A stretch of 64,000 bases of DNA, from positions 310,001 to 374,000 of the forward strand of contig JASFXZ010000079.1 in the NCBI GenBank assembly GCA_032209605.1, read 5' to 3'. Made by a program: the position numbers and the translations under genes. A model generated the notes under the pieces. The model was not told the origin of the DNA, ran no database searches, and saw nothing but the letters and a program-made list of their open reading frames with translations. Of the stretch, positions 16,801 through 62,423 are shown in pieces. The stretch comes from Mactromeris polynyma. Its lineage: Eukaryota; Mollusca; Bivalvia; Venerida; Mactridae. Numbering within the stretch: the stretch's first letter is position 1; every line of letters starts with the position of its first letter.

Positions 16801-19800
16801 AACTAGGGTTAGTTTTTTTAAACAAAACATTAACAGGGATTTTGAACACCGATGTACCGATACAAGTTTACTCACGTATTCCAGTTGAATAACCTACGTT
16901 CAAGTCAAGTTGCATGTTCCATGCTAAAAAATAAATATTTATCACACACAAATACAATTTCCAATGTGTAATCATTTTGTTTTTAAGAAATGTGAATCCA
17001 GGCCGGTAGAAACGTATTGGCGACCATGTGGTGAACTGCTTGACGTAAGTGGTGACTTCTGGATTGAGGTAAGTATTACATGTACTTTGTTCAGGAGCTT
17101 GGTACAATGGGGTCTTGATTTATATCAGTAGACCTTTCAAAACCAGTGTTTATTGTATTACGATAAATTAAAGTTTTGAGCTTTTAATGAAGGTTTATAA
17201 GGTGAGATAGATCTATTGACTTTGATGGGAACTGTATAATGCGGTACTTAACTCTGGGGTGCTCTTTATGTTTAAGTGTTCTTCAGCGTACAACTAGCTG
17301 TATATTGTACTTATAAATAAATGTTTTAGTCATATTGATTTTGTTTCATTTGCAGGTATACGTCTACAAACCAGTTGTGGCAACAGGAATAATTATACAT
17401 TTAGCCTCAGACGGCCGATCACTGAAGAATCAGGAAAAGAAACAAATACATATACAACAGATCACATCAGACGACACATACATCAGTCTGGAACATTCTA
17501 GTCTGACTGTAAGCTGTGAAGAAAGTCCGCTATACGTACCAGTAACCCAAGATCTCAGCAAACCCTTTGTATTGACTAAAGGTAGGCTACTCTCGAGTTA
17601 CTTTCTAACTTTATACAATGGTTACCTCCCTTATAACATAAAACTCATAACAAACGCTAATGCTAACCCGTTGTATCTCCGAGGCTACACCTGATCACTA
17701 AGTCGTAACATCGATTGGAATTTAGTAAATTCATTTCGAGGCATGAGAAAAGTATGTCCCTTATTTTGTATTCCAGGTGTCAGGGTAAGCTTCACCTCCT
17801 CCAGTATTGGCTTATACGCGGTTCGAATCCGAGCCTCACCGTACATCAACCCAGTTGGCATGCAAACCTGTGCTGACAACGAACTCTACAGTACTAAGCA
17901 TGGTGTATGCGTCAGTGACAAATGTTCACGTGCGAAGTGTGATGAGTTTCCGGTTAAATACGGCGTGGCTGTATGTACCGGAATTGAGGACGGAGACTCG
18001 TGCAAAATCCAGTGTGACAATGGGTACATATGACTTTTTATGTTCAATTTTGGCAGGATTTCTATGTACTACGCATACTTTGTATGATCTTTTTTCTGAA
18101 ATGACTTCATATTATTTAAGATTTGTTTATTTTTATCATTCTAAATGTAGTATGGACTTCAAATCGTTTGTTGTTCCATGATGTAACTCTTAACTTGTGT
18201 CACTCTATCAAATCAAAGCACAAAAGTGCTGTGTGACGGTACCACTCGTCTCTGTAGCCAAGCTGGCAACTCGTTGCATACAAGTTTCCGTTTTGCAACT
18301 AAACAGTTTTATAATATCCAAGTATGTGTAAATAGGTAAGATGGTTTGCATGGAAAATGGAATAAAACTAAAACATAAGACAGAAATGCGAAAAAGAATA
18401 AAAATTTATTGAAAAAATAGTAAACATTTTATCCAAGAGATCTTCAATCCGACTTGTTCTAGAAATGCTAGATTTTCAAACCGAAATAAAGAAGAATGGT
18501 CAGTAATAATGGTAGAACCTTAAAATTGTATAACAAGTGAAATGTTTGTCACGATTATAAATAAATGAAATACAAAGATATCAGACCCTTTATGTAACGT
18601 TTGTGAATATTTAATTATAAAATGACATATTTAATTATATCAGCACGAACTCAGAGTAAAATCAGTATGCCCAGGCATAAAGTTATGATAACTAGCTTGC
18701 CATAGGTTATGAGTTATCTTGTTGTAGTGGGATATTTTCCAATTAATTTTCCAAGCACAGAGTGAGATGTACGTAGAAAGATGACACCGATAATTTTCGT
18801 AGTCGTGCACAACGATACCATATCTACGATAAATCGCAATAAAGAAAAACAACAACAGTAATCACTTGTCATCGATTTATATATATCCTTTAAACGCAGT
18901 CTGAACCCGAGTACACTCTTCTATGTGCGCTCGCTTAGCGAATTTATCGCGTTTATAGGTAACCTGGCATTTTAAGTCTTGAGAACCGGTATGGTAGAGT
19001 ACCCGTCTGATTCCATTTCTGTCACGCAGTTTCTCCAACTGGCGAAAAGTAAGAATCTGTACTAAACGAAAACAGTCGACGCTCTAAAAATATGCACTTT
19101 ACAAAACGATCACGATTTATGAAATTAATAAGGAATAAAACAAGATATACATTTAGTATGTAAATGAAGTACAAAAATGAACCATATTTAAAAAATATAA
19201 AAGAGACAATAATTTTTCGTTCATTAAATTTTATTATGAGCACACCCAAAACTGTAAACAAACTCGTGTGTATTAATACATTGCTTTAAACCCCAACTGA
19301 ACTCCACAGAAACAGCTAATAAGTTCACAAACCACTTTAGCAGGTCACGTTTTCAACATTTAATTTTAATGAAACGTTTATGATATTATTTCGTTCGGTG
19401 AATTTTGGAACTACTTTGTTTGCGTAGTAATTAGGATGTGGATGTTTTTGACATGTTACCGGCTTTCAGTCTTTTTTGTGTTTTGAAAACGGGAACCAAT
19501 TGTTGTATGCCTCTCAAATTGCTACACTACTATAGACGGTACCTGAGTAGTACCGTCCAATAAAACTGTATTGATTTTGTTTTGCTGAAGTCTGAGGGCT
19601 GTGTTGCAAGCACTCGAATACAATGTATTTGTAACATTTTTTAATTCAGGTATTATGTTGATGGTCATGAGAACAAAGCTCAGTGTGTGGATGGTAACTG
19701 GGTGTCATCATCACCATTAACGTGCAGTCCAGTGGTTTGTGGCAAACCCTACGTTCCCATGGCAACTATTGTGTGTTCTGACGGAATAACATATGCAAAA

Positions 19801-22800
19801 ACATGCAATTTCAAATGTGATAAACCTGCAACTGTGACAGGTAAATTATGAATATTTGCATATATTTGCATATATCTACATACATATATTATAATGTTTA
19901 ACTGTAGTTATGTTATACCTACCAATATCACGGTTCTCTTTTCAAAAGAATGCACAGGCAGTGCCGACAGCTTATATTTATGGACGAGGCATACATCCTG
20001 TCTCTTAATTCGCCCTAAAAATAATACAGAAGTAGAAAGTCATTCGTCAGTGACTCTTAATCTATTCAGGGAATTGTCCATAAACACATATGTTTTAAGC
20101 CATGTGCTTGACCGATCATTGGTAAATGTACTGACTGGCAAGCTTACATTGTTGTTACTCTTTAAAACGATGTTAAAACGAAATGACAATGCTATGACAA
20201 TATTTATTGCATGAAACTAACATGGTATAATTTGCTTGTTTAAACAGCATTTATCATATAAACCTTAAGCTTATATCAAAACACATGCTCCGGAGGTTGC
20301 TTGGCGGGCACACTCAGGGGATTAATACAAACAAAAAGTGTTGTCGTAATCCCACCTTGAAGCAGGAATATTTCGGAGTTTTTCCAGGCATCAAAATTCT
20401 GGTCGGAATGGCCGCCAGTTTTTTCTCACTGAGCATTTAAAAGTTCTCATGTTGGGAATCATCCGCTGTCTAACAACCCCTTTATACACATTGCTCACTC
20501 CTTGAGGCAAAACGTTGAATGGTGAAAAACGGAAATACAATTGGTGGTTGTTTTTTTGTTCCGTATAAACAAATGTCTTTTTTGTTTTCGTTATTTTATG
20601 ATTTACTTCAGGAGATGACACGACTTTGACTTGTCTGAGGAACGGGAAATGGTCCAATCCGAAGGCTGCTTGTGTTGTTCAATGTAGCGCATTGGATCCA
20701 AATGCCTATGACAACGGGAAATTGAAAACTACATCCTGTGTTAAGGGGTCACAACAAGTAGGTCAGCAATGTAAAGTCAGATGTCAAGAAGGCTTCCACG
20801 TGCAAGGAGGTCGAACAAAAAGGTTTTCTATTTAGATTTACTGTTCCCTTTCTTCTCAGTATGAGTTTTATTTAATTCCCCCTTAACACCCCTAGATACT
20901 CTTTAATACCCCCGTCCATGATTCTTAATTTCCAATCATTGCTGAGTTATGCTGCTGTACAGGCTACCCCTTTCCCCCATATATTGTCTGTTTACATTTA
21001 ATGGACGCATCCCACCGTAAACGCGGAATCACATTATGGTTGGGGCACTTGATTATGATGATGATTGATGATGATGACGACAACGACGATGATGATGCCT
21101 TTAAATAGGACAAGACATAAATCTCTAATGAGGCATGACCATGCCTTTTCGCCGCACATCATTCCCCTCTCAATTACTATGAATCAAAGAGCAGTGGGTT
21201 CAAGGAGTTTGTATTGCATTAGTCAACGTACTGTTTATACCATCTTTCAGGAGATTTCTTCGAATTGTCTGCGATGATTTCGGGGAATGGTTCGGTCCAA
21301 AATGTGTACCAAATACATGTCCACCGCTACCTCAAATGTTCCAGGGAGCATACACCTGCACGGATGAATTCAAGAGCGACAGTACATGTACAATGAACTG
21401 CGCAGATGATTTATCGGTGAGTGTCTGGAGTTTTATTAATACATTCTTATGACCCTAATGCAGGATATTATTTCACAAGTATTGTGCGACTACAATGGCT
21501 GTAATAAATTGATTTTGATTCTCCCTTGCAGCAGAGTTTCTATGTAATTATGCTGGATTTTCTTGTTCTTGTTCCATTTATGTGTTGCAACCAGAGTCAT
21601 TGTGTAATACCCAACTAACCCAATGGCTCAATGGTAAATCGTTTGTCTCGGGTGCCAAATGTTGCAGTTTTGAACCCAACGTCATACAACAAGTACTAGT
21701 AGCTCCCTTGCGTACGCTCGGCATTACCGTGTAGTACCAGGACTGGTTGGCCCGGTGTCACTTTAATGTGACTAGGTATGGTAATGTGTCCAGTGTCTAA
21801 GACAAGGTACCACAGTTTTGCTGCACTATAACTGCTACGAGTAGATATCATCTCTGTATATGACTGAAAGATGTTTGGTGAGAGTACATCTATAATTGTA
21901 AGCCAACACAACTGTTTATAATTTGAGCTAACAAAAGTTTCCAATTTCTTCATATCTTCAGCTGTACCAGGCAGTGACATGTGGCAAAAATGGGGAATGG
22001 CGTAGCAAGTTGAACATCTGTCCTGGTGACTCTCAGAAAGCATGTCCCATCCTACTGTCATCTGAAAAGTTCAAGTTTATGTGCAATCATTCAAATCCAG
22101 GTTGGTCCTTTACACAAACATATCTTGTGTAACGGCTTTGTGGTATGTTACAAGAATCGCAACATAAAAAAATGTAGAAATCAAAATTTCTATAATATAT
22201 CAAAACAGACAAGTTGTTTAAATGTAGATGGCCCTCATTAAAACTTTTTGTTGCTATTGTCAGGCATTTTGCAAGGTATGAAAAATGTCATTTTGCAGGA
22301 GAAGTTACACATTTATTGGTTCTATAGCAGAAGCATATAGCGGCATACTTTTGCCACCTGTTAACTACATAATTAAGTTGAAAAGTATGTGGTTTATCTA
22401 CTGTATATATAAACATAAGCAGAGCAACCGCTGTAGAGCAACATCATCAGGGTGATGCTAATAATGGCTGCTAATGAGAGGTTGTTGCTCTAGAGATGTT
22501 CATTTAGAAGTAACTTTTGACTGCAGGAAAATTGATACATATACTGATGTTACAGAAGGTTTTTGCTCAAGAGACGACAGTGTTCGAGAGGCTAAACTGT
22601 ACATGTAATATGTGCCTTGCTATTATGAACTGTTGCAAAATTTAAACAATGATGCTTAATCAAAGCCCTGGAATGTTGCTTAGATCAATATTACTTAATC
22701 AAAGTACTGGGAAGTTTTAGATCCATAAATCAAAGTACTGGAATGTTACCTAAATCAATCCAATGGTGTTTGTTTATTACAGGCGGGGAATGCACAGTGA

Positions 22801-23884
22801 AATGCGCCATTGAGGATCATATACCAATTCAAAAACCACGAAAAACCTGGAACCAACCTGTTGATAAAGCATTTGAATATATTGACAATATTGTGTGTAC
22901 AGTTTTACAAAAATGGGAACCAGCTCCACGTCTACTTGAATGTGTACAGAAATGTTCCGAGGTAATATAGAGGAACGGTACAACATTATATATACTTTAT
23001 TCCTCGATGTTGCTTCCACAGTGGACAGTTGCCACTTCATACGGCATGACTTAAATGATCGTTTATATGTTTTCGATGCACATTGAGCATAATTATAGGA
23101 GCAAGCTACAAGTTTTATATATGCAAGCTGCAGTTGTAAACCATGTATTACAAGGACCATGCTTTGTTTTTGAGGGTTGTAACCAACTCCTGTGGTAATC
23201 GGTGAATTTATTTATTTGACAAACAATATCTTCAAATGCAGTTAAATTGTTCTAACAACCTACAACTGTCATGCCTACACTCGTTTAAGAGCGCCTTTAT
23301 AAGTTTAGTCATTTGCGTTGCCATTAAAAGCACATAATTGGTACAGAAATAATGTAAACTTCTGACATTAGGGCGTTTTGTATAATGATCAGTTATTTTC
23401 TTGTAGTGGGTATTTGATATAGATTCTGAATAAAATATTACATTCATATTCATACATTACTGAATTTATGAAACTCGTTTTCTAAAAATTATGAAAATCA
23501 CAAAATCACTTTTATCATTTTCCGAAAACGTGTAAAATGTCCAGTTATATATTATGACCATTCATGTAATACTTCTTTGCCCTTGTTGCCAAAGGCAAGT
23601 TTTCGAGAGAGATAAAACTTGTCAAAATAAATTAATTGTATTATTACCAGTCAATATGCTGCTGCTTGTTTTATTTACAGAAGTCGATTGCAGACGGTTT
23701 CTGTGACGCCAATAACAACCGTGATGTTTGTGATTGGGATGGTGGCGATTGTTGCCCCTCCACTGTACAATGGGGAGAGGTGTTTCCTATGCCTGAAAAC
23801 TGCGCTGATGAATGCTCTTGCAAAGACCCTTTAGCAATTGAGAACCGAAGGCGAACAAGGAGGCATAAACATGGATATTGGTAG
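4116..23884 (+). CDS. PAPPA: Pappalysin (PAPP-A family metzincin metalloprotease), 22 coding exons
   Basis: Secreted zinc endopeptidase. Vertebrate PAPP-A and PAPP-A2 cleave IGF-binding proteins. The exons I place are 4116-4398, 6827-7883, 8559-8710, 9412-9573, 10269-10403, 11938-12059, 12365-12518, 13085-13217, 13589-13742, 14630-14799, 15552-15680, 15969-16054, 16496-16677, 16988-17068, 17356-17581, 17777-18023, 19650-19840, 20612-20822, 21251-21416, 21962-22100, 22783-22961 and 23681-23884. All junctions are GT-AG and keep one frame: 4563 nt, 1520 aa plus stop, against about 1600 for human PAPP-A. The order is signal peptide (1-16), LamG-like region (about 40-230), LNR1 and LNR2 (about 362-430), zinc site HEFGHVFGLWH (518-528), Met-turn NYMSYA (about 590-596), five sushi modules (about 1100-1450) and LNR3. 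The ISE motif after the zinc site and the FTPQQEARMHCYLDL segment are family hallmarks. The start is the first ATG of a hydrophobic leader. Weak donors follow exon 5 (GTTGGT) and exon 18 (GTTTTC). Whether it is nearer PAPP-A or PAPP-A2 cannot be told by eye. Confidence 0.93.
5338..5515. mobile_element. Tigger/pogo-like MITE in pappalysin intron 1
   Basis: The ends CAGTAAAACCTC and, in reverse complement, CAGTAAAACTTC are flanked by TA on both sides (5336-5337, 5516-5517). This fits the CAGT terminus and TA target of the pogo/Tigger group. Internal ACTGGTCTTA...ATTGAGG motifs repeat in both orientations. It is too short to code. A related copy lies at 35476-35648. Confidence 0.65.
6322..6579. 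mobile_element. Inverted-repeat element with amplified left arm
   Basis: The outer ends AATTCATCC (6322) and GGATGAATT (6571) are inverted. The arms pair over GTTAGACTTCTCTCCCTTTA and its complement. In the left arm a roughly 23-bp CTCTCCCTTTCTCCCAGTTAGTT unit is repeated about four times, while the right arm has one. The right end TCTCCC...TAACTCGTGACAATCTCC links it to the family at 16069-16161 and 14999-15035. Confidence 0.65.
8245..8400 (+). repeat. Headless SINE body fragment
   Basis: Carries the phrases GGTTGGTAATCCAGGAACACTG and TTTGTGGAAGAACATG, resembling the body of the SINE at 932-1200. No A or B box was seen. A comparable fragment lies near 6130-6320, just 5' of the inverted-repeat element. 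Confidence 0.4.
8559..12059 (+). CDS. PAPPA: Pappalysin exons 3-6: metzincin catalytic core
   Basis: Exon 3 (8559-8710) encodes GYMHVEELK...NIFLVTSSW. Exon 4 (9412-9573) carries the zinc-binding HEFGHVFGLWH at 9471-9503 with all three histidines and the catalytic glutamate, followed by RGISEMSC. Exon 5 (10269-10403) carries GDLCSDT...NERDSCENIGFNDTPFSNYMSYA, with the Met-turn methionine. Exon 6 (11938-12059) carries DDTCIDHFTPQQEARMHCYL. The residues needed for activity are present, so the protease should be active. Confidence 0.92.
14999..15035. repeat. Solo arm of the GATTGTCACGAG MITE family
   Basis: GAGATTGTCACGAGTTCTCT continues into CCCTGTATCCC and matches the arms of the element at 16069-16161. 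The partner arm was not found nearby. It sits in pappalysin intron 10. Confidence 0.5.
16069..16161. mobile_element. 93-bp palindromic MITE in pappalysin intron 12
   Basis: The left arm GATTGTCACGAGTTCTTTCC continues to TTTATCCCAT and pairs with a right arm ATGGGATAAAGGGACCGAAC ending GTGACAATATC. The arms are about 32 bp around a short centre. It begins 15 bp after the exon 12 splice donor. Confidence 0.7.
17777..23884 (+). CDS. PAPPA: Pappalysin exons 16-22: five sushi modules and terminal LNR3
   Basis: Cysteine-patterned sushi (CCP) modules run from the CVSDKCSRAKCDEFP segment in exon 16 to LECVQKC in exon 21. Each ends in the usual W...C pattern, for example GNWVSSSPLTC, NGKWSNPKAAC, FGEWFGPKC and NGEWRSKLNIC. 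In mammalian PAPP-A, sushi modules 3-4 bind cell-surface glycosaminoglycans. The last exon (23681-23884) encodes LNR3 (DGFCDANNNRDVCDWDGGDCC) and a basic tail (RRRTRRHKHGYW) before TAG. LNR3 is the module that acts with LNR1-2 on substrate choice in PAPP-A. Confidence 0.88.
21610..21850 (+). repeat. Second SINE-like family with tRNA-like head
   Basis: An A-box-like TGGCTCAATGG near 21623 and a B-box-like GTTTTGAACCC near 21667 are followed by a body with GACTGGTTGGCCCGGTGTCA and a TAATGTGACTAGG segment. The body differs from the 932-1200 family. It lies in pappalysin intron 19. Confidence 0.45.
22650..22765. repeat. Three degenerate direct repeats, about 45 bp
   Basis: The phrase AATCAAAGTACTGGAATGTT recurs three times with changes, just upstream of pappalysin exon 21 (22783). 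It may be an old local duplication. Confidence 0.4.
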
Positions 23885-35400: not shown

Positions 35401-38400
35401 TCGTTGCTGATTTTTAGTGTATATAATTACTGCTGGAAACTTATTGGTCAAGGATGACTGATATTTTTGGCTGAACTGTGTAGAACCTCGCTTAAAGACC
35501 ACCTTGATTATAAGCCTACCAAAATTAAGAACCCAGTTTGCAAGTCAATCATCACTGTCTGGCTTTATTCAACCTCAATATTAAGAGCACCTCAATAAGA
35601 CCAGTTTTCAAGTGTCCACAAGGTGGTCTTGTTGTTGAGGTTTTACTGTATTAACAAAATCTTACCAATGTGGACTTTACGTGAATTTTTGATGAATTCT
35701 ATATTTAGAAACACAGAAGCAGCCCAAGCAGCAGCTCAGGCCGCAGCGAGAATAAATCAACAACTCGGGGTCGCATCATCAGGAGGCAATATGATGCAAC
35801 AACAACCAGATCAGATGAACCTCGGTATGGTCATCACAGAGGAATACAAAGTACCAGACAGAATGGTCGGACTTAGTAAGTTCACTTATTATTAGAAATA
35901 GAAGTTGTTTGGTTTGGTCAGATCTGTGAAATAAAAGCTTAATTTTGTTGAAGGAAGTTGTTTACTATTAAAATCTTGCCTGAATTGGAATTAAAACAAT
36001 GACTGTATTTAGTGTCTGACTGAACTTCTATGGGTTTAAAATTAACCATTGTGTTCTTGGTATATACAGGATTTATCTATTGAATAAGAAGTCGATGAAA
36101 ATAGGTCTAGTCTACTCTGTTATTGTGAATTAACAAAACTTAAATGATTTGCATATTGAACAATTGTCTTTACTGCTAATTGATTTAGTATAGTAAATCA
36201 TATCTATTGGTTCTGTTGGATTCGTTTAGCGATTATGAAATTGGTCGTTTGTGCATCCCTATTTTTATGTTACTGGACATCCTGAATCTACTGTATAATA
36301 TGCTTGATTCTCAATGCACAAATTGTGGGAGCTTTGAATTGATAGTATTATCCTTAATGGTATAATTTAAAGCTACACTTAAAAAGAATAAAAGCCAAGG
36401 GGAAGTTTTTGTCCTACAGAAACAGTGTCGGGGTAAGTGCACTTTCGGAGGTCTTCCATATTTTTCATTGATATGTCAAGGTCTAGCATCGTGCTATATT
36501 AACTTCAGTTAGAGAAGGATCGGTTATTATTTGTAATTGGTCTTAATTAACTGAAACACACAAAACATGACTATGTGAAAAACTTGGATCTTCGTGTTGT
36601 TATTGAATGAACTAGATTTCCCACTTGTGTACCTCTGTCAAAGATACTCATGATTTGAACGGTATGTTTGAAATGGAAAGATAAGGTCTTGCAATTTAAT
36701 TAATGTCGTCCTCTGTAAACAATGTCAACTGCGTGCTGGCCCAACTTAATCTGCTCCTCTCCCGTACTATGAGCGAGGGTGCTTGTGTTTGATTAGTAAT
36801 GGTCGCCGAGTTTCTCATGTGTTGATTAAAGTTTTTGTTTTCGGACGTAGCACTTTCGGAGGTCTTCCATATTTTTCATTGATATGTCAAGGTCTAGCAT
36901 CGTGCTATATTAACTTCAGTTAGAGAAGGATCGGTTATTATTTGTAATTGGTCTTAATTAATTGAAACACACAAAACATGACCATGTGAAAAACTTGGAT
37001 CTTCGTGTTGTTATTGAATGAACTAGATTTCCCACTTGTGTACCTCCGTCAAAGATACTCATGATTTGAACTGCATGTTTGAAATGGACAGATAAGTTTT
37101 TATTTTCGGACGTAGCACTTTCGGAGGTCTTCCATATTTTTCATTGATATGTCAAGGTCTAGCATCGTGCTATATTAACTTCAGTTAGAGAAGGATCGGT
37201 TATTATTTGTAATTGGTCTTAATTAACTGAAACAAACATAACATGACTGTGAAAAACTTGGATCTTAGTGTTGTTATCTAATGAACTAGTTCCACACTTG
37301 TGTACCTCCATCTAAGAAACTCGTGTTTTGAACTCCATGTCAGAAATGGACAGATTAGGTTATTGTGCAATGGATTTAAAGTCATCCTTTGTAAACAAAG
37401 TCAATCGAGCACTTGCCTGACTTAATTCTTCTTGTCCCATTATACTGCGAACGAGCTTGTCACTGGCTTCCTTGTATATAATTGAAAATATTTGTTTTCG
37501 GACGTTGCACTTTCGGAGGTCTTTCGTATTTTACTATGATATGTCAAGGTCTAGCATCGTGCTATATTAACTTCAGTTAGAGAAGGATCGGTTATTATTT
37601 GTAATTGGTCTTAATTAACTGAAACACACATAACATGACTATGTGAACAACTTTGATGTTTAGTGCTCTTGTCTAATGAATTCCATACTTGTGTACCTCC
37701 GTCTAAGATACTCGTGTTTTGGACTGCATGTATGAAATGGAAAGATTATATATAAGTTGTTGGGCAATATATTTAACATCATCTTTTGCAAACAAAGTCA
37801 ATCAAGCACTTGCCTGACTTAATTTTTCTCCAATACTGCGAACGAGGGGCCTTCGTGGTCTTATAGTGATGGTCACTGGCTTCCTCATGTTAGTGAAAAT
37901 ATTTGTTTTGGACATGGCACTTTCGGAGGTCTTTCATATTTTACTATGATATGTTAAGGTCTAGCATCGTGCCACATTAACTTCAGTTAGAGAAGGATCA
38001 TTCACTTAATAGTTTCTGGTCTTAATGTACTGACACAGATATATATTTGGCACTATTATAGTCTGATTTATTTATCGAGAACATTTGAATATATTACTTG
38101 TACCATAACATTTCAAAATAGGTGTATTGAAATGTTAGTGTTTGTCCGTTAGTTTGACAGAGAAAAAGCTCTGGTTGTGTAATCCAAACAGCAGTTATAG
38201 CTTAACCCACAGGTGCATTTCCTTACCTAAATTGGCCTGGATCGGGCCTGAAAGTTCATGCACCTGTTCGCTGTCAATCTAACAGCACTGTACCCCATGA
38301 TAAACACAGTCCCTATCATTGTAGTATATATCTAATATAGCAGAATGTGAACAGCGCTCGGCCCGGTAAAAATCAGTGGTTGTCCATAGTGGTCTTAATT

Positions 38401-41400
38401 CAGTTCAAAAATAGTACAAGTGTTACTAATAATTTTAAACTTAAAACTTTTTTTTGTTTATTTAAGTTATTGGTAAAGGAGGAGAGCAGATTACCAGGTT
38501 ACAGGCAGAAACAAGTTGTAAAATACAGATTGCACCAGGTAACTAGGCGTAAATACAATACTTGGGTCCAACTGTAATTAGACTGGTCCAAATTTTAGTC
38601 CTGGTAAACACGTGATCAGTTACATATTTGGACTAGTCCTTATTATAGTAGGCTTTCATACAGAATAGTCGATGTGGAGTTTTTCAGTATCTCCCACTGT
38701 AAGAATGGTGTTATAATTTTACACTCCTGCACAATGCATGACTTTTAAAGGCTTGTATAGTACTTAATGTTGCTGATTCTTTTTAAGAAAAGTAAACATT
38801 CTGAAATATTTCGAGTGACTTGGCTTACTTGTGTTTACATTTCTGACAGTTTTTTGGTAAGTTAATGTCATGTGTTCTGTGCCATGCCAAGTGTAATTTA
38901 TATTTTACTGTTGCATTACATTTTGTTTTTATTTTAAGTCTTGTTGGATTAAAGTCATTAAATGAACATTTTTTGTGTATTCTGAATATAGTTTATTTTA
39001 AGGCTTTTGTACATTAGATGCTAGATTATCATCTATCCACTTAACAAAAGGGAGGAGCGGTTTAAAAATTTACTTCCTGCAAATAATGCATTAACATTTC
39101 TGACACTAGGTGTACAAGATGAATTTTATCATATTTTAGTAGAGTTTGGCCTTCCTTTAAAGTGTTGGAATTTTTCGTTACTAAAAAGAATTAAAAATTA
39201 AGGTTCAACTGACCCGCCTCCCACAATTGTCACTTTTTTTTTTAAGCTAAGTGGGATGAAAATCGAGCAATTAATGTATAATTGACCTTCCATATATATT
39301 GATCATTATTTTCTTACGCTTGAATTTAAAGATGTGGTCAATTTAAAAGCGTTTACTGGTTATCGAGATACATGTACAATCTTGTGTTTATTCCTGACAG
39401 TTGTGTAGCCCTTATGTTATGTTGAAATGATCTCTATACTTTCAGAATGTGACGGATATGGTATGTTTGTTTTGAACTTCAAAGATGAGTGTACCTTTCT
39501 TAAAAATGTTTACCATCAATTGGCCTTTGGTTTTATTTGCAATGTGCTGTTGCTAGAAATGATGAAATTGTAGGTCTCGTGTACAAAATGACAATATCGT
39601 GCCACTGCAAATCTGTACTCCCAGTCTCAACAATCTTGCTCTTAGATTGACCCCCTCTTTAACTCTATGTTGTATATAACGGGTTTTACTTCCTACAACA
39701 TTTTAGTCTTCGATCTAGTGCAGTCACTCTGGTCTTGGAAGTCCACCAAATCACGAAAAACATCTCTAAACAAATCATATCTTTGGCCTTTCTATTCTCT
39801 TACATATCATGTCGATTATCTTAACTTATCTTAACTTTTCGAGAGAGAGAAAACCTCAAAACTTTTCAGACTTGAGACAATGTTGGCCTTTATGGACATA
39901 GGTGACTGTCAAAGACGTTGATGTAGCATGCACATGTTAAGGTAGTGAAATTGATGATTTTGTAGTGTATCAGATCTTAATCCTTCGACTAAAAAATTGA
40001 ACAAAATTAAGCCCTGCTTATATGATTTTCAGACAGTGGTGGTATGCCTGAGAGGTCAACTACATTGACCGGAACTCCTGCAGCTATTGGGTAAGTTCTT
40101 GATAATATGAGGGCTGCTATATGGTTTCCAACCTCCAGAAACGTGAAGTCACCATGTACTGACAGTAAGCAACATTTTCCCCATTTGGCAATATGAAACG
40201 AAGTGACCATATGGAGTAAATATTGTTTCCTGCTTGCAAATAGTGACATGATGTTTCATTATCTTGAAATGACCGTCACTCACAGAATAGGTTGGAAATC
40301 CCATAGCAGCGCTCATTATTTATTTTCATTCAGTTCCTGTTGACACAGCTCCTGTCTTTACACTTCTGTGTTGTAACATTAATAAATTAAGGTCAGCTAA
40401 GACTGCAGATCTGTAATGGACTGGAGAATGATTTCCTCTTTTCTTTTTGCCGAAAAAAAACTTAACCAAACTGATGGATGGTCGGTTTTTAGGGGTTGAT
40501 GTTTTACTAAGTCTGATTTGGTATTGATTGTAGGAAATTGTACTACATCTGGATATGTAATCTTAGAAATTGGTATTACATCAATCAAACAAAATGTGAA
40601 TTCTTTGTTTTTGATAAATATAATGTTTATCTTTTTAGAAATGTAAAAGATGAGATTAACAAAATCATACAGAGAGCACAAGGTGGCGACCAAGGTGGAT
40701 TTGGGGACAATTCAGGGAATATTGAAATCAATATACCCGGTAACAAGGTCGGCCTAATAATTGGCAAAGGAGGAGAAACTATTAAGCAGCTTCAGGTAAG
40801 TGCGCTTTGAACAAAGGACATTAATCAGGAATGCTGAGCATTCAGACTCGCTCTATTCTTAATTAATGTTGCAGGCATTCCCAAGACACGTGTTTTTTTA
40901 GCCTATTAGGGGCCGTAGTTGAGTAACATTCCTCTCTGGAAAGTACATATTTCTCCTATACATGTCAAATTATCCTTGGACAGTATTGTAGCTATTTTCA
41001 TTCAGAAAGCCTGTAACACAGAAATGTAAACTCTGAAGTTAAAATATTTTCCCGTAGAGACCCTATAACCACCTCTAAGGCCCCACCAATATTCCCCTTA
41101 ACGCTGGTCCCATACCCTCTATATTCAACATTTAAAAGGTCGGCCATTTCTGATTTGTGGGACTTCGGAGAACATTTCCTTCCAAATTCCTAACCTGTAA
41201 GGCCAGGCACCTGGCAGGGAGATAATTATTATTTAATTAGTTGTTGGGTCACCATCTGACAGTATCTGATTAGGCCCCTTATGGGATTAACTAGAAACTT
41301 TGACTTACCATTTGCTAGACTGATGCCTTGACCACTCAGCCATAGGAGACGGCATTAAATTTCCTGTGTATTAATTTACAGTGTGCAATTTTTGTGGCCA

Positions 41401-44400
41401 AATTAGTTAACATAAATAAATACTTTAATAATTGACTGAAATTTGGTTTGTTGCTCGCAGGAGAAAGCTGGGGTAAAGATGGTCATGATCCAGGACAGTA
41501 ACGTACCAACAGCATTCGATAAGCCTCTTAGAATCACTGGTGACCAGATGAAATGTTCGAGAGCAAAGGAGATGGTTCTTGAACTATTGGCTTCCAAGGA
41601 TAACGACATGGGATATGATATGGTAAGTGAAAAGCATATTTTCCTTCTGAACTTTCTATTTAATCAAAATTTTGTTAGTGTATGAAAAAGTTCTGCATGT
41701 ACAGGCATTAAATGTAGTAGAAAAACCTTTCAAATCATGGTTGGTTTGATATTTTCTCTAGTTAAGGATGTTTGTTATTATGGTGTATTTAGTGTAGAAT
41801 ATTACATGTTAATACTTGAAACTATACACATTAATTTTGATTACAGGGAGGTGGTGGTGGCGGTGGCGGCGGCGGCTATTCCAATGGCGGCGGTATGGGG
41901 GGATTCGGTGGTGGACGCGGAGGTGGCATGGATATTCCTGTGCCACGTGCAGCTGTCGGTATCGTCATTGGAAAAGGCGGAGAAATGATTAAAAAGATCC
42001 AGCAAGAAACTGGAGCCAAGGTGCAGTTTAAACAAGATGACGGCCAGTCTGAGGATAGACTGTGTACAATCTCTGGGCCACCAGATAAGGTTCAGGCTGC
42101 ACAAGATATGATACAAGACCTACTGAATAACTCGAATGTAGGGGAAGTAAGTAACCTTTTTTTCTTGCCTTGCTAGTAAAACTGATTGTTATGTTTGATG
42201 AATAGGTCCTGTATGCAAGATATTTGTTTAGCTGCTTTCATCAAGAAGAGTATCTGTGTCTCTGTTACACGTGCTCAGTCAAGATTGAAAGGTTATGTCT
42301 GTGTTTATGTTTTGCCCTGTTGTTGAGCTGGTCAGAGCTGCTTGTAACTTTGTGTTATTGGCAGTGGTCCTGGTCCTGGTCCTGGTTGTTTTGTTTCCCT
42401 GACATAGATCTCCGTTACTTGCAACCTCGGTTAAATGATTAATGTGCCTTGAAATGGAATTAAATAGAGTATTGAAGTGGGTAATATGTGAAAGGTTTGT
42501 GTACGTAGTAGTGTGTGCACTTGCGGGATGAAGCACATTTTAAGAGCCAGGTTTTTCTTTCTCTGAGAAGTTTGGTGTCATAAATGTGCGATATTAACTC
42601 AGGGAATCGCTAACACTATCCGTATTAAGGGATAGAGTTTGATAGTAGACCCCGAAACAGTGTCTACAATTTTCGTCGGGACATTGTTGTGTACATGTTA
42701 AATTGTATGCAACATGTGATTTAGTTTACAAGAAAGTATATCTTCCCATGTGATTAAATGTCTTGAAACTTAGATGTAAATATTAAGTCACTTATTTAAC
42801 AGTTGTAAATATAAATCATTTTCTTTTATTGTTAAAATTAATTGTGCTGTGTAACTATTGATAAGACTATTTTCTTTCTTACTTGAAATATTTAATATGA
42901 TCACCATTTTTGTTGAAACAGAAATGCAATTTTATTTTACTTTAATATATGGTTTTCAAACAAGTCTCAACAGAAATGGATGATTTTTATTCAAAAAATC
43001 ACAACATAAAAATAATTGAAAAACTAGTTTCCATTTATACCAGTTTCCTTGTCATTAGCACATTTTAAGAGCCAGTATTTTTTCTTGAAAATGTTGGTGT
43101 CATAAATGTGCAATATTAACTCAGGGAATCGCTAACACTATCCGTATTAAGGGATAGAGTTTGATAGTAGACCCAGAAACAGTGTCTACAATTGTCGTCA
43201 AGACATTGTTGTGTACATCTTAAATTGTATGCAACATGTGGTATAGTTTACAAAAAAGTATATCTTTCCATGTGATTAAATGTCTTGAAACTTAGATGTA
43301 AATATTAAGTCACTTATTTAACAGTTGTAAATATAAATCATTTTCTTTTTATTGTTAAAATTAATTGTGCTGTGTAACTATTGATAAGACTATTTTCTTT
43401 CTTACTTGAAATATTTAATATGATCACCTTTTTTGTTGAAACAGAAATGCAATTTTATTTTACTTTAATATATGGTTTTCAAACAAGTCTCAACAGAAAT
43501 GGATGATTTTTATTCAAAAAATCACAACATAAAAATAATTGAAAAACTAGTTTCCATTTATACCAGTTTCCTTGTCATTAGCACATTTTAAGAGCCAGTA
43601 TTTTTTCTTGAAAATGTTGGTGTCATAAATGTGCAATATTAACTCAGGGAATCGCTAACACTATCTGTATTAAGGGATAGAGTTTGATAGTAGACCCCGA
43701 AACAGTGTCTACAATTTTCGTCAGGACATTGTTGTGTAGATTGTAGTTTGTATGCAACATGTGGAATAGGTTACAAAAAAGTATATCTTTCCATGTGATT
43801 AAATGTCTGTTGAAACTTAGATGTAAATATTAAAAATCACTTATTTAGTGTTATAAATGTTGTAAATATAAATCATTTTCTTTTTATTGTTAAAATTAAA
43901 TGTGCTGTGTAACTATTGATAAGGCTAATTTCTTTCTTACTTGAAATATTTGATATGATCACCATTTTTGTTGAAACAGAAAGTTTATGCAATTTAATTG
44001 TACTTTAATAAATGATAATAAATGATTTTCAAACAAGTCTATTGAAACAGAAATGGATGATTTTTATACAAAAAATCTCAACATAAAAATAATTGAAAAA
44101 TAATTGAAAAACTAGTTTCCATTTATACCAGTTTCCTTGTCATTAGCACATTTTAAGAGCCAGTATTTTTTCCTTGAAAATGTTGGTGTCATAAATGTGC
44201 AATATTAACTCAGGGAATCGCTAACACTATCCGTATTAAGGGATAGAGTTTGATAGTAGACCCAGAAACAGTGTCTACAATTTTGTCAAGACATTGTTGT
44301 GTACATCTTAAATTGTATGCAACATGTGGTATAGTTTACAAGAAAGTATATATTCGCATGTGATTAAATGTCTTGAAACTTAGATGTAAATATTAAGTCA

Positions 44401-47400
44401 CTTATTTAACAGTTGTAAATATAAATCATTTTCTTTTTATTGTTAAAATTAATTGTGCTGTGTAACTATTGATAAGACTATTTTCTTTCTTACTTGAAAT
44501 ATTTAATATGATCACCATTCTTGTTGAAACAGAAATGCAATTTTCTTTTACTTTAATATATGGTTTTCAAACAAGTCTAACAGAAATGGATGATTTTTAT
44601 TCAAAAAATCACAACATAAAAATAATTGAAAAACTAGTTTCCATTTATACCAGTTTCCTTGTCATTAGCACATTTTAAGAGCCAGTATTTTTTCCTTGAA
44701 AATGTTGGTGTCATAAATGTGCGATATTAACTCTGGGAATCGCTAACACTATCCGTATTAAGGGATAGAGTTTGATAGTAGACCCAGAAACAGTGTCTAC
44801 AATTTTCGTCAAGACATTGTTGTGTAGATTGTAGTTTGTATGCAACATGTGGAATAGGTTACAAAAAAGTATATCTTTCCATGTGATTAAATGTCTGTTG
44901 AAACTTAGATGTAAATATTAAAAATCACTTATTTAGTGATATAAATGTTGTAAATATAAATCATTTTCTTTTTATTGTTAACATTAAATGTGCTGTGTAA
45001 CTATTGATAAGGCTAATTTCTTTCTTACTTGAAATATTTGATATGATCACCATTCTTGTTGAAACAGAAAGTTTATGCAATTTAATTGTACTTAAATAAA
45101 TGATAATAAATGATTTTCAAACAAGTCTATTGTAACAGAAATGGATGATTTTTATACAAAAAATCTCAACATAAAAATAATTGAAAAATAATTGAAAAAC
45201 TAGTTTCCATTTATACCAGTTTCCTTGTCATTAGCACATTTTAAGAGCCAGTATTTTTTCCTTGAAAATGTTGGTGTCATAAATGTGCGATATTAACTCT
45301 GGGAATCGCTAACACTATCCGTATTAAGGGATAGAGTTTGATAGTAGACCCAGAAACAGTGTCTACAATTTTGTCAAGACATTGTTGTGTACATCTTAAA
45401 TTGTATGCAACATGTGGTATAGTTTACAAGAAAGTATATATTCGCATGTGATTAAATGTCTTGAAACTTAGATGTAAATATTAAGTCACTTATTTAACAG
45501 TTGTAAATATAAATCATTTTCTTTTTATTGTTAAAATTAATTGTGCTGTGTAACTTTTGATAAGACTATTTTCTTTCTTACTTGAAATATTTAATATGAT
45601 CACCATTTTTGTTGAAACAGAAATGCAATTTTATTTTACTTTAATATATGGTTTTCAAACAAGTCTAACAGAAATGGATGATTTTTATTCAAAAAATCAC
45701 AACATTAAAATAATAGAAAAACTAGTTTCCATTTATACCAGTTTCCTTGTCATTAGCACATTTTAAGAGCCAGTATTTTTTCCTTGGAAATGTTGGTGTC
45801 ATAAATGTGCAATATTAACTCAGGGAATCGCTAACACTATCTGTATTAAGGGATAGAGTTTGATAGTAGACCCCGAAACAGTGTCTACAATTTTTGTCAA
45901 GACATTGTTGTGTAGATTGTAGATTGTATGCAACATGTGGAATAGGTTACAAAAAAGTATATCTTTCCATGTGATTAAATGTCTGTTGAAACTTAGATGT
46001 AAATATTAAAAATCACTTATTTAGTGTTATAAATGTTGTAAATATAAATCATTTTCTTTTTATTGTTAAAATTAAATGTACTGTGTAACTATTGATAAGG
46101 CTAATTTCTTTCTTACTTGAAATATTTGATATGATCACCATTCTAGTTGAAACAGAAAGTTTATGCAATTTAATTGTACTTAAATAAATGATAATAAATG
46201 ATTTTCAAACAAGTCTATTGTAACAGAAATGGATGATTTTTATACAAAAAAATCTCAACATAAAAATAATTGAAAAACTAGTTTCCATTTATACCAGTTT
46301 CCTTGTCATTAGCACATTTTAAGAGCCAGTATTTTTTCCTTGAAAATGTTGGTGTCGTAAATGTGCGATATTAACTCTGGGAATCGCTAACACTATCCGT
46401 ATTAAGGGATAGAGTTTGATAGTAGACCCAGAAACAGTGTCTACAATTTTGTCAAGACATTGTTGTGTACATCTTAAATTGTATGCAACATGTGGTATAG
46501 TTCACAAGAAAGTATATATTCGCATGTGATTAAATGTCTTGAAACTTAGATGTAAATATTAAGTCACTTATTTAACAGTTGTAAATATAAATCATTTTCT
46601 TTTTATTGTTAAAATTAATTGTGCTGTGTAACTTTTGATAAGACTATTTTCTTTCTTACTTGAAATATTTAATATGATCACCATTTTTGTTGAAACAGAA
46701 ATGCAATTTTATTTTACTTTAATATATGGTTTTCAAACAAGTCTAACAGAAATGGATGATTTATACCAGTTTCCTTGTCATAGCACATTTTAAGAGCCAG
46801 TATTTTTTCCTTGAAAATGTTGGTGTCATAAATGTGCGTTATTAACTCAGGGAATCGCTAACACTATCAGTATTAAGGGATAGAGTTTGATAGTAGACAC
46901 TGAAACAGCAGCGTTATTATGTCCAAAGATTTTCTTGCATTGAAAATAGGAAAAAAATATGTATACTGATTGTAACACAGGTTCTCTCAACATCAGTTTA
47001 TTGCTAACTTTTAGGTATACTATAAATCAGAGTAAGAGGATTTTCTGTATCAAGTTATTGAACTTAGATGATGTTTGCGGTTTCTAATCCAATATATTAA
47101 ATCATCAGTCTCGGTCCATTTGGTACACAATTGACACAGGTCTGATTGAAATGATTTTTGCATTATAGTATTTTCCTTGTTTGCTTTTTCTGTAACAGTT
47201 TGGTGGTGGTGGTATGGGTCGCGGTGGTGGTGGATTCCGCGGAGGACGAGGCGGCGGTGGCGGTCGTGGAGGATTCAGCCAAGGAGGTCCAGGAGGGCGT
47301 ATGGGTGGACCTGGTGCCTTCGATGGTGGCAATTTCCAGGATCAAACCACTTTCTCTGTACCAGCTGATAAGTGTGGCTTAGTCATCGGTAAAGGTATGT

Positions 47401-50400
47401 AGGTCTCAATATTTATTGTTTTATTGACATATGTTGCATCAACTTATATGATGAAGTGGTTTTAGTTGGACATCAATAGAAGAATGCCACACATTGTTCC
47501 TTTGATTCGCACCACATGTCATTGTCCAGTGATTGTGTTGTGGAATAAATATTATACTAAAAGTCGTAGAAAACAATTTCATACGACCTGAATGCTTAAA
47601 ATTCCTAAGGTCTAAAATTTATTTATAGATCTGTAATTTCTGTTGACTAATTTTGTAGTCCAATCTTTGACTTCTGTAAGCATGTTTTGTTCTGATGTAG
47701 GTGGTGAAACTATTAAGAATATCAACAGCACATCGGGAGCTCATGTTGAACTTCAGAGACATCCTGGTCCCAATCCCAATGAGAAAGTATTTAACATACG
47801 TGGGGAACCAAACCAAATCCAGCATGCTATACAGATGATCTGTGAAAAAGCTGGTTTACCTTATGTAAGTTGACAACTATATAATATGTTTTGAATATTC
47901 TACTGAAACTCTTCGTTAAATGTGGCTGTATGAAAGTTAATTCAGTTTCTGAGCATATCTGTTTGAGTGAAGTCCTGTTTGTAATGCACATATTAGAGCC
48001 TGCCTTTTGTATTGAACTGTAGGTGTCGACATGTTGCTATATTAAAATTCAGAGTTTCAATATTCTCTATTGCGTTTTGTAACGGACAATATTGTTACTC
48101 TGAGACAATAGTTCGGTAAGAATCCTGCAGTCAGATCTGATATAAATGAAATATCTTTTAGATAGGCTTGTTGTTAGTGATTCTGTATATAGAGCAATAA
48201 AGATATGATCGATTATAAAATAATAAAACCTCCTATTTAGTGTTGTTTTGTGCCAGTAAAATTTACATGCGAGTTCAATGACTGAAGATATTTAAGCAGT
48301 TTTGTTATGTCCCAAATTACTTGAAAGAAAAGTTGGCTGTAGTTATCAATAAGTTCCTGATTTATTTTACTAATCTTTTTATACAGGATGGTCCTGGGGG
48401 AGACATGTTTCAGGGTGGTCCAGGTGGTCCCGGTGGACCAGGTCCAGGTGGCCCCGGGGGTCCACCACCAGGTGGTCCAGGAGGCCCTTACGGAGGTCCA
48501 GGTCCACAAGGACCAGGAGGCGGCGGCTATGAGCAGTATGGTGGACCTCAGGGAGGACCAGGGTAAGAATTTGAATATACTTGGAACTCTTTGTCATATG
48601 TGACTGTATGAAAATTTATAAGTCTGAGCATATATCTACTTAGGCCATGCCAAATTGGAATTTTGTTAAGCGTCCGCATGCGCCTAGGTTTTGCGCTCCT
48701 CGAGCCAAAAAAAGATTCTAAGCTAAAATTCTCATATATTTTTGATGTCCATGATTCGACAACGCCAATTTTAGTTGAGATCCGACAACGATGTGACTAT
48801 CTGACCCATTCCCAAAGCCAAATATATGTTTTTCCCAATCAGAAGCACCTACGAAAAATCATTACTGGAGCGACCTGGTATATCGTGAAGCTCTTTGAAT
48901 AACTCTCGCCATTATTGTCCTTTGTATCATAAACGACAGTTGCTACAAGAAATGTAGATTAGAATGCTTGTTTATACAAAATTTAGATATGAAAAGCCTG
49001 TTTAAACTATGCAAATTCCTAAAATTCAAGTTGAAGCGATTCAAGTTTTCTCAAATTGGCAAATTTTACAATGCAAATTTTCCCAGTTTATCTAGGGTCT
49101 TTTTCCCAAAATGGACAGAAAAAAGCCTGAATTCTTAACATTCTATTATTGTCTTGTAGAAATTTGTTTAACATTAATTTGTGTGAAATCTAGTCAATTT
49201 GTCTGAAAACTAGTCTGTTTTAAATTATATTTATACATGTATAGATCTAGTTTTGAAACAAACCGTTTTGTTTCTTTCATTTAAATATCTAAAATCATGC
49301 ATTGCTAATTATTTGAGGATATTTGTTATGAGTTTGTGTTTTTTTAAATAGGTAGCTAGGTTACGCGAACTTAGGTTGACGCTTAACAAAATTTCAATTT
49401 GGCGTGGCCTTAACCTATGTCCTACAAACTAAGTCTTGTTTAAATTGCACATATTAGAGCCTGCCTTTTGTATTGAACTGCAGGTGTCGACATGTTGCTA
49501 TATTAAAATTCAGAGTTTCAATATTCTCTATTGCGTTTTGTAACAGACAATATTGTTACTCTGAGACAGTGTTACATGAAAATTGTTTTTGACATTACTT
49601 CATTGCTTCCTCACTTTGTTTCTTCTGTTGAAAGTCTCTGTTTTGCTAGATAATCGGCATTGAAACTTTGCCTACATGAGGTTATTATGATTGTCAATTA
49701 AAAAACAATTCCCACCGGGTTAGGTCAGTTAATTGAGCACTCGACTGTTAATTCAAAGGTCGGAGGTTCAAACCCTGTGCAAGGCGCATGTTCGTCCACA
49801 ACAATTTAACTAAAGATGTTGCATCGAAAGTCATTTGTCCTAAATTCTGATTGATTCGAAGTAGTCTGTTGCTTACAGAGGAGCAGCATAGTAATGGTTG
49901 GTATCCCAGCCGTATATATAACTGAAGTAATGTTGAGAAACAACGCAAAGCACAAGACAATCCAATATGATTGTGATAAGATACTTCTTCGCAATCATTT
50001 TGATCTTAAAAAGGCCTTGGTATGCAATATTGCTGATCTTATTTCAGTCCCAACCAGCCAGGATATGGTGGTGCACCTCAAGGTTGGGGTCAGCCAGGAT
50101 ACAATCAGCAGTTCCCAGGTCAAGGTCAACAACCAGGAGCACCTGCCGGTGGAGATCCTAGTAAGTATTTGTCCACTTAATTTAACTCCTTGAATTCAAA
50201 TTGTTCATATTTTTAGTCATTTGCATGCTTTTATTGCTAACAAATTTTGCTTTCAGTTATTGTCGAAACATTATAATGAATCCCTTTCAGTGTTTAAGGG
50301 ACATCTCTCTGATTTTGACTTGATGACAAAAAACCCTTTTTTTTTATGAAGCTAATTATCAAAAAGAACTCCAATAAAATTCTACTTAAGCCACACAAAC

Positions 50401-58941: not shown

Positions 58942-61900
58942 CTACACTGGCAATTCTTCCAAGTTTTCGATGTTTTCATATGTACATTTTGAGCTACTAG
59001 TTAGATTAACATACACAGACGCTATGTTGGAATTTTTCTGTGCATCCCCGAGCTGAAGATGAACTTTTTCTAACATATCTGCTATGCATTGTCTGATAGA
59101 AGTGAATGGTGGACGGTCAACTGGATCTATAGCCCAACATCGCCTCATTACTTTATACCTGAAAAAATGAAATGGAATACGTGAGAAAAATAAAACTGAA
59201 GGGATCAAACCTAGAAACGTTGCGAACAGAACCCCAACCGACCAACCAAAATTGGCCACGACTCAAGTTATGCTCATCGGTACAGGTTTTTTTGTGTGTC
59301 TGGTAGAAGTCTCCCGGTGTTTTATTGTTGTTCCAAGACTACAAAACTGTTGATTGCACTTTATTTTCTTTACGTTTAATTGTTCTGTTGTTCTTCATTC
59401 CATTTAAGTTTGTTTTGGTCATCGTCCTTCTTTATTCTATATTCGGTCGACTGCCCTCCAACTTAGAAGGTGCAGTAAAACAAAATTGGGACCAGGGAAT
59501 CAAAAACTGTCTGGTTTAAATCATATTTTGTGCCCCCCCCCTTCTTTTTCTTTCCCCATTTCGTACCCTGCTTATCTTTGTGCGGATCATGGTCTCTTAT
59601 TTTGTATGTAGCATTCTTGCTTCTCTCACATTTTCTTACAACATTTCCAAGAACAATAATCAGTATTATGTGGGTTTTTATACGCATTATACATACAATG
59701 GTGTTGGGCAGAACATAGGTTGAGGTAGTCGTCGTCCAGATTTGAGATATCTCTCCATGTCCCAGTTATCTACTGCAGCATACGGCCTGACACCACGTGT
59801 CATCAATTCCCACAGAGTAACTCCGAATGACCACTGAAATATAAATAAATTAACCTTTACAAGTGGGCGTGACATCATTCTAATTCAAATTTGGACCACG
59901 TGATTAACGAGGACGTTACCTAAACGACACGGACGCTTTCAATGAAGAGTATGATCAAGACGATGAAATGTTATCAAACGTTCGTAGTGAAACTGTCAAT
60001 TAGACAGCAGACAAAAATGTTTTTGTTCAACTGTTCATCAGTTATGAAAAAAGTTTCGGCTTGGGATTTTCCAATGTCAGCTCATGGCGAAAGAGTGCTG
60101 TGATACTGTTCGGAGTGGGACGTTAGAAAAACAATCTCCCACAGTCTTCACGTGTTCAGAATACAACGTGGGTACTGGGGCCTTTTTGCAAATCGAGATC
60201 AAGAAAGTGTACACAGTTGACTTCTAATACAACTTATATTGTACATTCTAAGAACAACAACACAATACAAATGCACAATCCGCATATTTTTTTAACACAG
60301 CTTAGCAATGACCCAAGGGGTTCCAAATTGCCAGAAGGTGTCCATCACTTACCACATCAGTTGACTCATCAAACACGCCATCTGATAAACTCTCCACTGC
60401 CATCCATTTAACCGGAAGTTTGGTACCTTTACTTTTAGTACTGTAATATGACGTCTCGTAGACATCACGTGACAAACCAAAATCTGCGACTTTCACTGTG
60501 AAATCTGCATCTAACCTGAAGTAAAAGAACATCATCGGTGAATTTAGAAGGGTCGTCAAAACTGCACGCCTATGGTAACATTACTAACATTGTTAAGCAA
60601 TAGGAGTAGAAAGCAACATTGAAAATACATTTTAAGGACCTTTAATTTATTTGTTAACAACATGAAAAAACATCAATGTTATCGGAAGAACTAAATATCG
60701 CTTAATGAAGAAACACGCGACTTGGAAAATTATAACAATTGCTAGTGATAAAAATAAATTGCAATACTATTAAATGCACTCGCATGCTTTTCATTGATGT
60801 AAACAACTTAACAACTTTGAAAGTTTGCTGTAACAGAACAGTCGGTGTTAAAAACTTTAGTTAATTTATCGTATTATTTGTACAAATGAAACCTTACTCT
60901 AAGATCCCAAAATATGAAGCAGTATTGATTAGAAGCCGCTCTAAAAAAAGGCATAATTAAATATTATTGCATCAAAACGATAAGTTAAAGATTAGACGAT
61001 TAAAAAAGTCACCATTATTTATTGTCGATTATATGCTTTGTATAAATCTATAATACCGAGCTGGTTAAATATGATAATGGATTTTCTCAAGAAAATTTTG
61101 CCACGGAAGTAGGCCAAAGCAAGTATCTAAAATAAGCCATTCACGACAATAAGGCTAGAAGTCCTCATCGACATGTAAAATAACTTGAGCCACGTCTTAT
61201 TTTCGGTATTTCAGGATGCTTTATTTTTCAGGGCATTCTCTCTATATATATGTCATATATTTATTCACTACTTGGCTGTCAAAATAAACTTTATAACGAC
61301 ATTAAGGAACGTACATGCAGTTACGTGCAGCCAGATCTCGATGTACGAATTTCAGCTCTGCTAAATACTCCATTCCTTTAGCAATGTCCCGACCGTATGA
61401 TACAAGGTCTTTGACAGTTGGTATCTGAAAGTAATTGTAGACCACATTTAGGTGAGAAAATGATATACATACATTGCAAACATTGTATTAGCTTGATCTA
61501 TTTTTGAGCAATTTGAGTGTCATTATGTGATTGGTTTTTACTGCCGAACATCATGGCAAGTTTGATAGTACTACAGCGGACGATTTAAAAGTGGATATCA
61601 GCAATTAAAACGAAAGCGAAAATCTTAATTAGGATTTATAAACTGGATGTGGGAATAACGATTATGATCCTTACAAATTTATATCAGCGGTGACAAAGCG
61701 GTAGCAGTGATACTAAATACAAATGGCGGTAAACACGGAACTTGCAGACGGTGTGGCTGTGATAAAATAATGGTCGTATTCGAGAGAGAGAGTATTAGAG
61801 ATGGTTCATTTCATAGAAAGTATACAATTTACTCACCGAATGATGATTAAAATAGGTAAGGATAGACAGTAAGTACGTTATTTTTTCACGGTAACATAGA

Positions 61901-62423
61901 ATGGGATTCAATTATATGTACAATGAGGACTTTTAAAGATACGCACATGTTTGTCCTCGTGCAGATAGGAGAGAAGATCACCATGATCCATAAACGGCAG
62001 GATTACAAGAGGCATCTCCTCTTTTTCTAGACATATTCCAACTAATCGCATCACGTTTTTATGTCGAAAGTTCTTCATAATGTAAGCTTCTTTCAGAAAC
62101 TGAGATACATTCATATCTCGATGTTCATTTTCTGGAAATATATCATTGATCAATCAAATGACGTACAGCGATGACGAAGAACCAATTAATGAGATGAAGG
62201 CTTGCCTTTATGAATGGCAAGTGCTGTTAGTAGTATTGCAATTGTAATTTGTGTATACAGCAGAGAAAACCATAATGCTCTAAAGTTTTGAATCTAGTTT
62301 GCATATTGACCATGATTATTTTAAGTTTAACAAAATGAATAGAATTCACTTTATCCACAGTAAGTTCGTCCCCCAAGACATGGTCCATGGTGACAATCGC
62401 TCGTGCCGTAGCCACCACTTCAT

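Follow-up and report, generated by a model that had tools for sequence, protein, structure and literature searches.

The DNA analysed here, hereafter the window, is a stretch of 64,000 nucleotides (nt) from the bivalve Mactromeris polynyma (assembly GCA_032209605.1, contig JASFXZ010000079.1, positions 310,001 to 374,000 of the forward strand). On its plus strand lies a gene which is probably of the FUBP/KHSRP type, and one intron of this gene contains nine tandem copies of an H/ACA small nucleolar RNA (snoRNA) unit, termed family II. Two more H/ACA-like RNAs (families I and III), which went beyond the preliminary description of the stretch, were detected in three other introns of the host gene, so that 16 units of three RNAs are present in four introns of one gene. 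The host intron and the copies of the array are as follows (positions of the window).

42147..47198, + strand: host intron, GTAAGT..CAG, 5052 nt; splice sites read from the sequence, frames open on either side
42533..42659, + strand: family II copy 1, 127 nt, the most diverged copy; upstream sequence differs
43058..43181, + strand: family II copy 2, H/ACA unit
43581..43704, + strand: family II copy 3, H/ACA unit
44146..44270, + strand: family II copy 4, H/ACA unit
44668..44792, + strand: family II copy 5, same sequence as copy 6; guides of the 5' pocket UUAAGA and GUCAUA, of the 3' pocket UCGCUA and UAGUAGA; H box AUAUUA; ACA
45234..45358, + strand: family II copy 6, core equal to that of copy 5
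45756..45880, + strand: family II copy 7, H/ACA unit
46312..46436, + strand: family II copy 8, GUCGUA guide, G-U tolerated
46783..46907, + strand: family II copy 9, UUAUUA at the H box, 3' hairpin weaker; likely impaired

The nine-copy H/ACA array is real. A repeat search recovered a 128-nt unit nine times with 82-100% identity to the reference copy, and for family II it gave successive copy spacings of 522, 523, 566, 522, 566, 522, 556 and 471 nt. All copies are direct, share the strand of the host gene (9/9) and lie within 42533-46907, with 386 nt between the intron donor and the first core and 291 nt between the last ACA and the acceptor. The repeats, a permissive Rfam match and the box anatomy bear out the nine H/ACA copies in one intron claimed by the preliminary description, although the cores, anchored on GCAC..ACA, measured 124-127 nt instead of the 127-130 nt given there. 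Its statement that every copy has the H box (ANANNA) AUAUUA holds for eight copies but not for copy 9, which reads UUAUUA; the ACA tail box is present in all nine. An H/ACA guide was defined by a bipartite guide complementary to the target uridine and located 14-16 nt upstream of the box. In all 18 pockets (both hairpins of the nine copies), the distance from the start of the 3' guide strand to the H box or ACA is 14 nt, which agrees with the spacing initially proposed. The two-hairpin layout was found as well, since the minimum free energy (MFE) folds of all nine copies comprise a 5' and a 3' hairpin in the order hairpin-hinge-hairpin-tail, with z values of -2.0 to -5.7 versus shuffles, copy 9 being the weakest. 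Over the eight distinct family II sequences, 97.0% of the cells of the consensus pairing were paired. Three base pairs were altered on both sides among these sequences, a number matched by 4 of 500 shuffles in which kinship was not controlled. In copy 8, GUCGUA replaces GUCAUA and pairing with the target is kept through G-U. The MFE fold partly shuts the 3' pocket of the RNA; for copy 5, the single copy folded with open pockets, -40.5 kcal/mol was calculated for the free RNA (128 nt) versus -35.3 kcal/mol with the guides and the H box forced open (125 nt). A hairpin (about UGUUGUGUAC..GUAUGCAACA) occurs at most 60 nt past the ACA of copies 1-8 (42660-46500) and none after copy 9, while flank-to-flank pairing around the copies, studied by folding three of the nine, yielded 4-7 expected pairs only.

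In a permissive scan of 4.6 kb, SNORA62 (RF00091) was the best Rfam match of all nine copies, with 39.7-46.1 bits and E-values of 1.2e-6 to 3.8e-5. The second-best family, again for nine of nine copies, was nematode ceN58 (RF01645) with 21.9-33.7 bits. The 3' guide module UCGCUAACAC..GAGUUUGAUAGUA is common to family II and SNORA62 and occurs with small changes in ceN58. By contrast, the 5' guide is unlike that of the SNORA62 consensus, which has GUaGGa in place of the GUCAUA found 14 nt upstream of the H box. Because the 3' guide is shared, the 5' guide differs and the score lies below the cut-off (gathering score of RF00091, 80 bits), the family II RNA is probably a divergent relative of SNORA62/E2 rather than a member of this family by curated score. 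The Rfam comparison proposed earlier thus gave a permissive match in every copy and none at the gathering score; at gathering scores, no family passes anywhere in the window. A genome-wide search with RF00091 recovered seven of the nine copies at E <=0.001 and no other locus, which is a lower bound (38 of 22031 candidates scored), and a DNA search of the 793-Mb assembly (299 contigs) found family II at these nine places only. Sub-threshold Rfam matches to CRISPR-DR27, Lacto-phage-1, caiA and similar families were taken for AT-rich noise.

Both pockets had been described as complementary to large subunit (LSU) rRNA, and this was borne out on the LSU of another eukaryote. The sequence concerned is a partial contig (L018; LSU_rRNA_eukarya, 1778.7 bits) filed under a bacterial bin in a species-genome collection, and it was retrieved with a two-part pattern made from the expected target segments with an allowed gap of 60 to 90. 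It contains UAUGAC-UC-UCUUAA, the target of the 5' pocket, and UCUACUA-UC-UAGCGA, the target of the 3' pocket. The predicted target uridines are at 2633 and 2718, 85 nt apart, and the guides scored 29 and 31, values which were equalled by none of 400 shuffles each (maxima 25 and 30). The exact distance between the targets and the neighbouring uridines were not fixed by the selection pattern, apart from the uridines at -4 and +2 of the first site and -2 of the second, which fall within it. At offsets -10, -6, -4, 0 and +2 from U2633 there is always a U. The same spacing of 0, 4, 6, 10 and 12 is shown by the human pseudouridines Psi3737/3741/3743/3747/3749 (PMC6182160) and by Psi518/522/524/528/530 in helix 69 of T. 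brucei (PMC10662448). The offsets -9 and -2 from U2718 are U, too, and correspond to Psi3823 and Psi3830. In human 28S rRNA, Psi3747 and Psi3832 are likewise 85 nt apart and the table of modifications gives a value of 100 for each (PMC6182160). Since the spacings agree, the target of the 5' pocket is probably the equivalent of human 28S Psi3747 (helix 69) and that of the 3' pocket the equivalent of Psi3832, an equation built on these spacings. An assignment of the 5' target to the U19 site Psi3741/3743 was dropped, as the spacing in L018 leads to Psi3747.

The spacers of the array are of two types, A (about 398 nt; shorter in unit 8) and B (431-441 nt), which alternate from unit 2. Divergence amounts to 1.3-3.8% within a type and to 6-9% between types. 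Core 1 differs by 7-9% from the other cores, yet its spacer is of the ordinary A type. With unit 1 omitted, fixed A/B differences were detected in none of the 124 core columns versus 18 of the 346 flank columns (P about 0.002). The array would have grown by unequal exchange, first by single units of about 0.5 kb and later by an A+B dimer.

From the anatomy, the box spacing, the complementarity to eukaryotic LSU rRNA, the family resemblance and the position and orientation within the intron, we infer that the RNAs are released and act as guides. We assign a probability of roughly 0.86 to the conclusion that the array represents nine tandem copies of one intron-encoded H/ACA rRNA guide, related to SNORA62/E2, amplified by unequal exchange and predicted to direct pseudouridylation. 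The pre-mRNA of the FUBP-type host would be transcribed and then spliced, H/ACA core proteins would bind the copies inside the intron, and trimming of the flanks would leave a mature RNA of about 127 nt per copy. With this RNA, dyskerin would be directed to two uridines of LSU rRNA, namely the Psi3747 equivalent in helix 69 through the 5' pocket and the Psi3832 equivalent through the 3' pocket. As every copy keeps guides that are intact or pair through G-U, the copies would raise the dosage of one RNA, even though copy 9 is probably decaying.

Several findings weigh against the conclusion that the array encodes nine copies of an rRNA guide. The SNORA62 scores of family II are well under the gathering score, and the 3' basal stem has one pair unpaired in five of the eight distinct sequences and another in copy 9. 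As the LSU contig was chosen by the target pattern, its holding both targets is no independent test. The shuffle test is only as good as the assumption that both segments are generally present in eukaryotic LSU rRNA. An intact 28S rRNA gene of the species was not found in the assembly with two exact patterns (no matches), a 129-nt 28S query on the assembly returned one decayed fragment of 78% identity and nothing else, and a scan of viral contigs for one target segment gave no match. The stretch free of A/B differences overruns the core by about 100 nt on the upstream side and 35 nt on the downstream side and can thus be explained equally well by conversion or by selection, and the total variable sites of core and flank differ weakly (Fisher P 0.07). 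Moreover, nine RNAs per intron contradict the habit of animals to have mainly one snoRNA per intron, and the inner copies would not be freed by end trimming alone; a long RNA with terminal small nucleolar ribonucleoproteins (snoRNPs) would remain. The decayed 28S fragment mentioned above (L017, 1501-1611) is antisense, and its reverse strand still reads TATGACTCTC and TCTACTATCT.

The array might also be mostly the result of neutral tandem duplication, with one or few productive copies and the others forming a young local satellite. The divergence of merely 1.3-3.8% between units of the same type means that the copies are young, and youth by itself might account for their intactness. The broken H box and weaker 3' stem of copy 9, the one mismatch in the 3' basal stem in six of the eight distinct sequences and the similar growth of family I in the same gene are consistent with neutral duplication. 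On the other hand, every copy has two pockets that are intact or still pair through G-U, the H box is intact in eight, and three pairs are changed on both sides; neutral duplication is regarded as rather unlikely. It is improbable that the intron gives rise to a long RNA which carries terminal and several internal snoRNPs, like the H/ACA sno-lncRNAs (long non-coding RNAs with snoRNA ends) such as SLERT. Paired snoRNAs in one intron can give such RNAs (PMC11028025) and nothing in the array shows internal cutting. However, the hairpins following copies 1-8 could be cutting sites, which is a guess, and guide function accounts for the LSU pockets. Still more improbable is a copy number created by misassembly of long tandem units: the cores of copies 5 and 6 are identical, but any two of the eight spacers are at least five substitutions apart, A and B alternate from unit 2, and the array has unique sequence at its ends. 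A chance likeness to H/ACA RNA, already thought unlikely in the preliminary description, can practically be dismissed, for although none of the nine copies exceeds a curated Rfam cut-off, all of them match SNORA62 including its conserved 3' guide at the low E-values given above, and both LSU matches fall on sites known to be modified and keep the right distance to the box.

Clusters of H/ACA genes within introns have reportedly been described before. The 2004 paper of Huang, judging from its title, deals with multiple such clusters in Drosophila, reportedly with several H/ACA genes in introns of protein genes, and intronic clusters are also named in the title of a paper on Chlamydomonas. The copy number, initially called unusual, is in this respect less isolated, but it does stand out from the one snoRNA per intron mostly found in animals (PMC11028025); two Drosophila papers describe snoRNA clusters with one gene per intron. 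No closer case of a tandem multicopy H/ACA array in an animal was found among the papers listed, a weak search as 'H/ACA' is unsearchable as a word. Each copy of SNORD113/114 and SNORD115/116 resides in its own intron. These are likewise large local tandem snoRNA repeats, but belong to the C/D class and are eutherian and imprinted (PMC11028025). SNORA62/SNORA6 (E2/ACA6; human host RPSA) resembles family II as a two-hairpin H/ACA RNA with the conserved 3' guide module. E2 was assigned to 28S 3830 and 3832 (PMC6466398), and family II pairs with the 3832 equivalent. Family II differs from SNORA62 by reaching about half the gathering score, by its 5' guide for the Psi3747 site, by the FUBP-type host and by the nine copies. 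Regarding ceN58, the 3' guide module is very similar but the 5' half differs, and the score is below the cut-off of 60. In sponges, SNORA62 is an invertebrate intronic E2 orthologue of verified expression; it lies in the last intron of FAU, a ribosomal-protein host, in three Suberites species, and the available part of the report mentions no array (PMC4515611). Thus, the RNA class and its reaction are familiar, whereas nine copies of a conserved rRNA guide per intron, 16 units per gene and the combination of two targets in a single RNA are noteworthy. The data suggest that an old snoRNA family can have its two guide pockets redirected independently of each other. If expressed, the array would be a clear animal exception to the rule of one snoRNA per intron and a natural series for the processing of multi-snoRNA introns and for guide copy number versus the pseudouridine level of helix 69. 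In trypanosomes, loss of helix 69 guides is harmful (PMC10662448).

A covariance model made from the nine family II copies (R1) detected six further units in the window with E-values of 1.6e-5 to 0.032; two weak extras (E 0.4 and 0.69) were treated as noise. A second model (R2), made from 15 of the 16 units, had family I copy 5 as its only new unit, and two weak extras (E 0.24 and 1.4) were again treated as noise. The units of families I and III are:

36439..36558, + strand: family I copy 1, intron 35876-38466
36850..36969, + strand: family I copy 2, intron 35876-38466
37115..37234, + strand: family I copy 3, intron 35876-38466
37507..37626, + strand: family I copy 4, intron 35876-38466
37917..38035, + strand: family I copy 5, ACAUUA at the H box; the most divergent copy, 83% to copy 3
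47986..48107, + strand: family III copy a, intron 47865-48386
49447..49568, + strand: family III copy b, next intron, donor 48563, acceptor about 50490

Family I thus comprises five tandem copies (36439-38035) in an upstream intron, four of which were detected by R1, while copy 5 was picked up by repeats, R2 and the DNA search. The two copies of family III lie in separate introns downstream of the array. Of the seven units of families I and III, six carry AUAUUA as H box and one carries ACAUUA, and the z values of the folds range from -2.2 to -4.8. In the genome-wide DNA search, family I was found at its five places only and family III at its two only. Family III is similar to family II in the 5' half (three comparisons, each with none of 500 shuffles scoring as well) and less so in the 3' half (16, 4 and 0 of 500). 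Family I resembles family II in the 5' half (0 of 500 shuffles as good) but not in the 3' half (289 of 500). Rfam revealed seven sub-threshold matches for family I, all with H/ACA families (E 0.18 to 1.5), and for family III two weak sub-threshold H/ACA matches, both of them on copy a, whereas copy b had none. Among ten guide definitions applied to families I and III in the partial LSU contig, none beat shuffles, 76 to 400 of 400 being as good (400 for a definition without any site). For family III, a match close to the Psi3830 site was rejected as too weak. It is quite unlikely, though conceivable, that the FUBP-type gene is a dosage amplifier for H/ACA guides, in which 16 units of three RNAs are present, local copy number yields an excess of RNA freed by internal cuts, the targeting of helix 69 and Psi3832 is coupled by a 5' guide absent from the SNORA62 consensus, and ribosome modification tracks array length.

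The host gene was assigned by means of the exons bordering the array intron, among others:

41847..42146, + strand: host exon with KH domain, start approximate, from acceptor-like CAG; PF00013, E 8.6e-23
47199..47394, + strand: host exon, Gly-rich linker and start of KH4

For the flanking KH exons, the best matches among solved structures were FUBP1, FUBP2 and KHSRP. The upstream exon matched FUBP2 2jvz (E 5.3e-36) and 1j4w (E 1e-35), and its domain would be KH3 by the match to the first half of 1j4w. Joined to the exon from 47701, the downstream exon matched the FUSE binding protein 1j4w (E 3.7e-27). Further downstream, open frames contain AWAEYY and AWAAYY motifs, which are known from FUBP1. 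Frames, splice consensus and family matches, from which the introns were deduced, point to a FUBP/KHSRP-type gene. A FUBP gene acting as snoRNA host was not found among the papers listed, for which the weakness of the search term mentioned above applies as well.

Elsewhere in the window, a minisatellite of 25 copies of 29 bp with 98% matches is located at 1714-2440. Open frames at 4098-23884 have Laminin_G_3 and Notch/LNR domains and an HExxHxxGxxH motif and presumably belong to a pappalysin-type protease. On the minus strand, open frames matching a tyrosine-kinase domain are present at 60305-60580 and 61911-62153.

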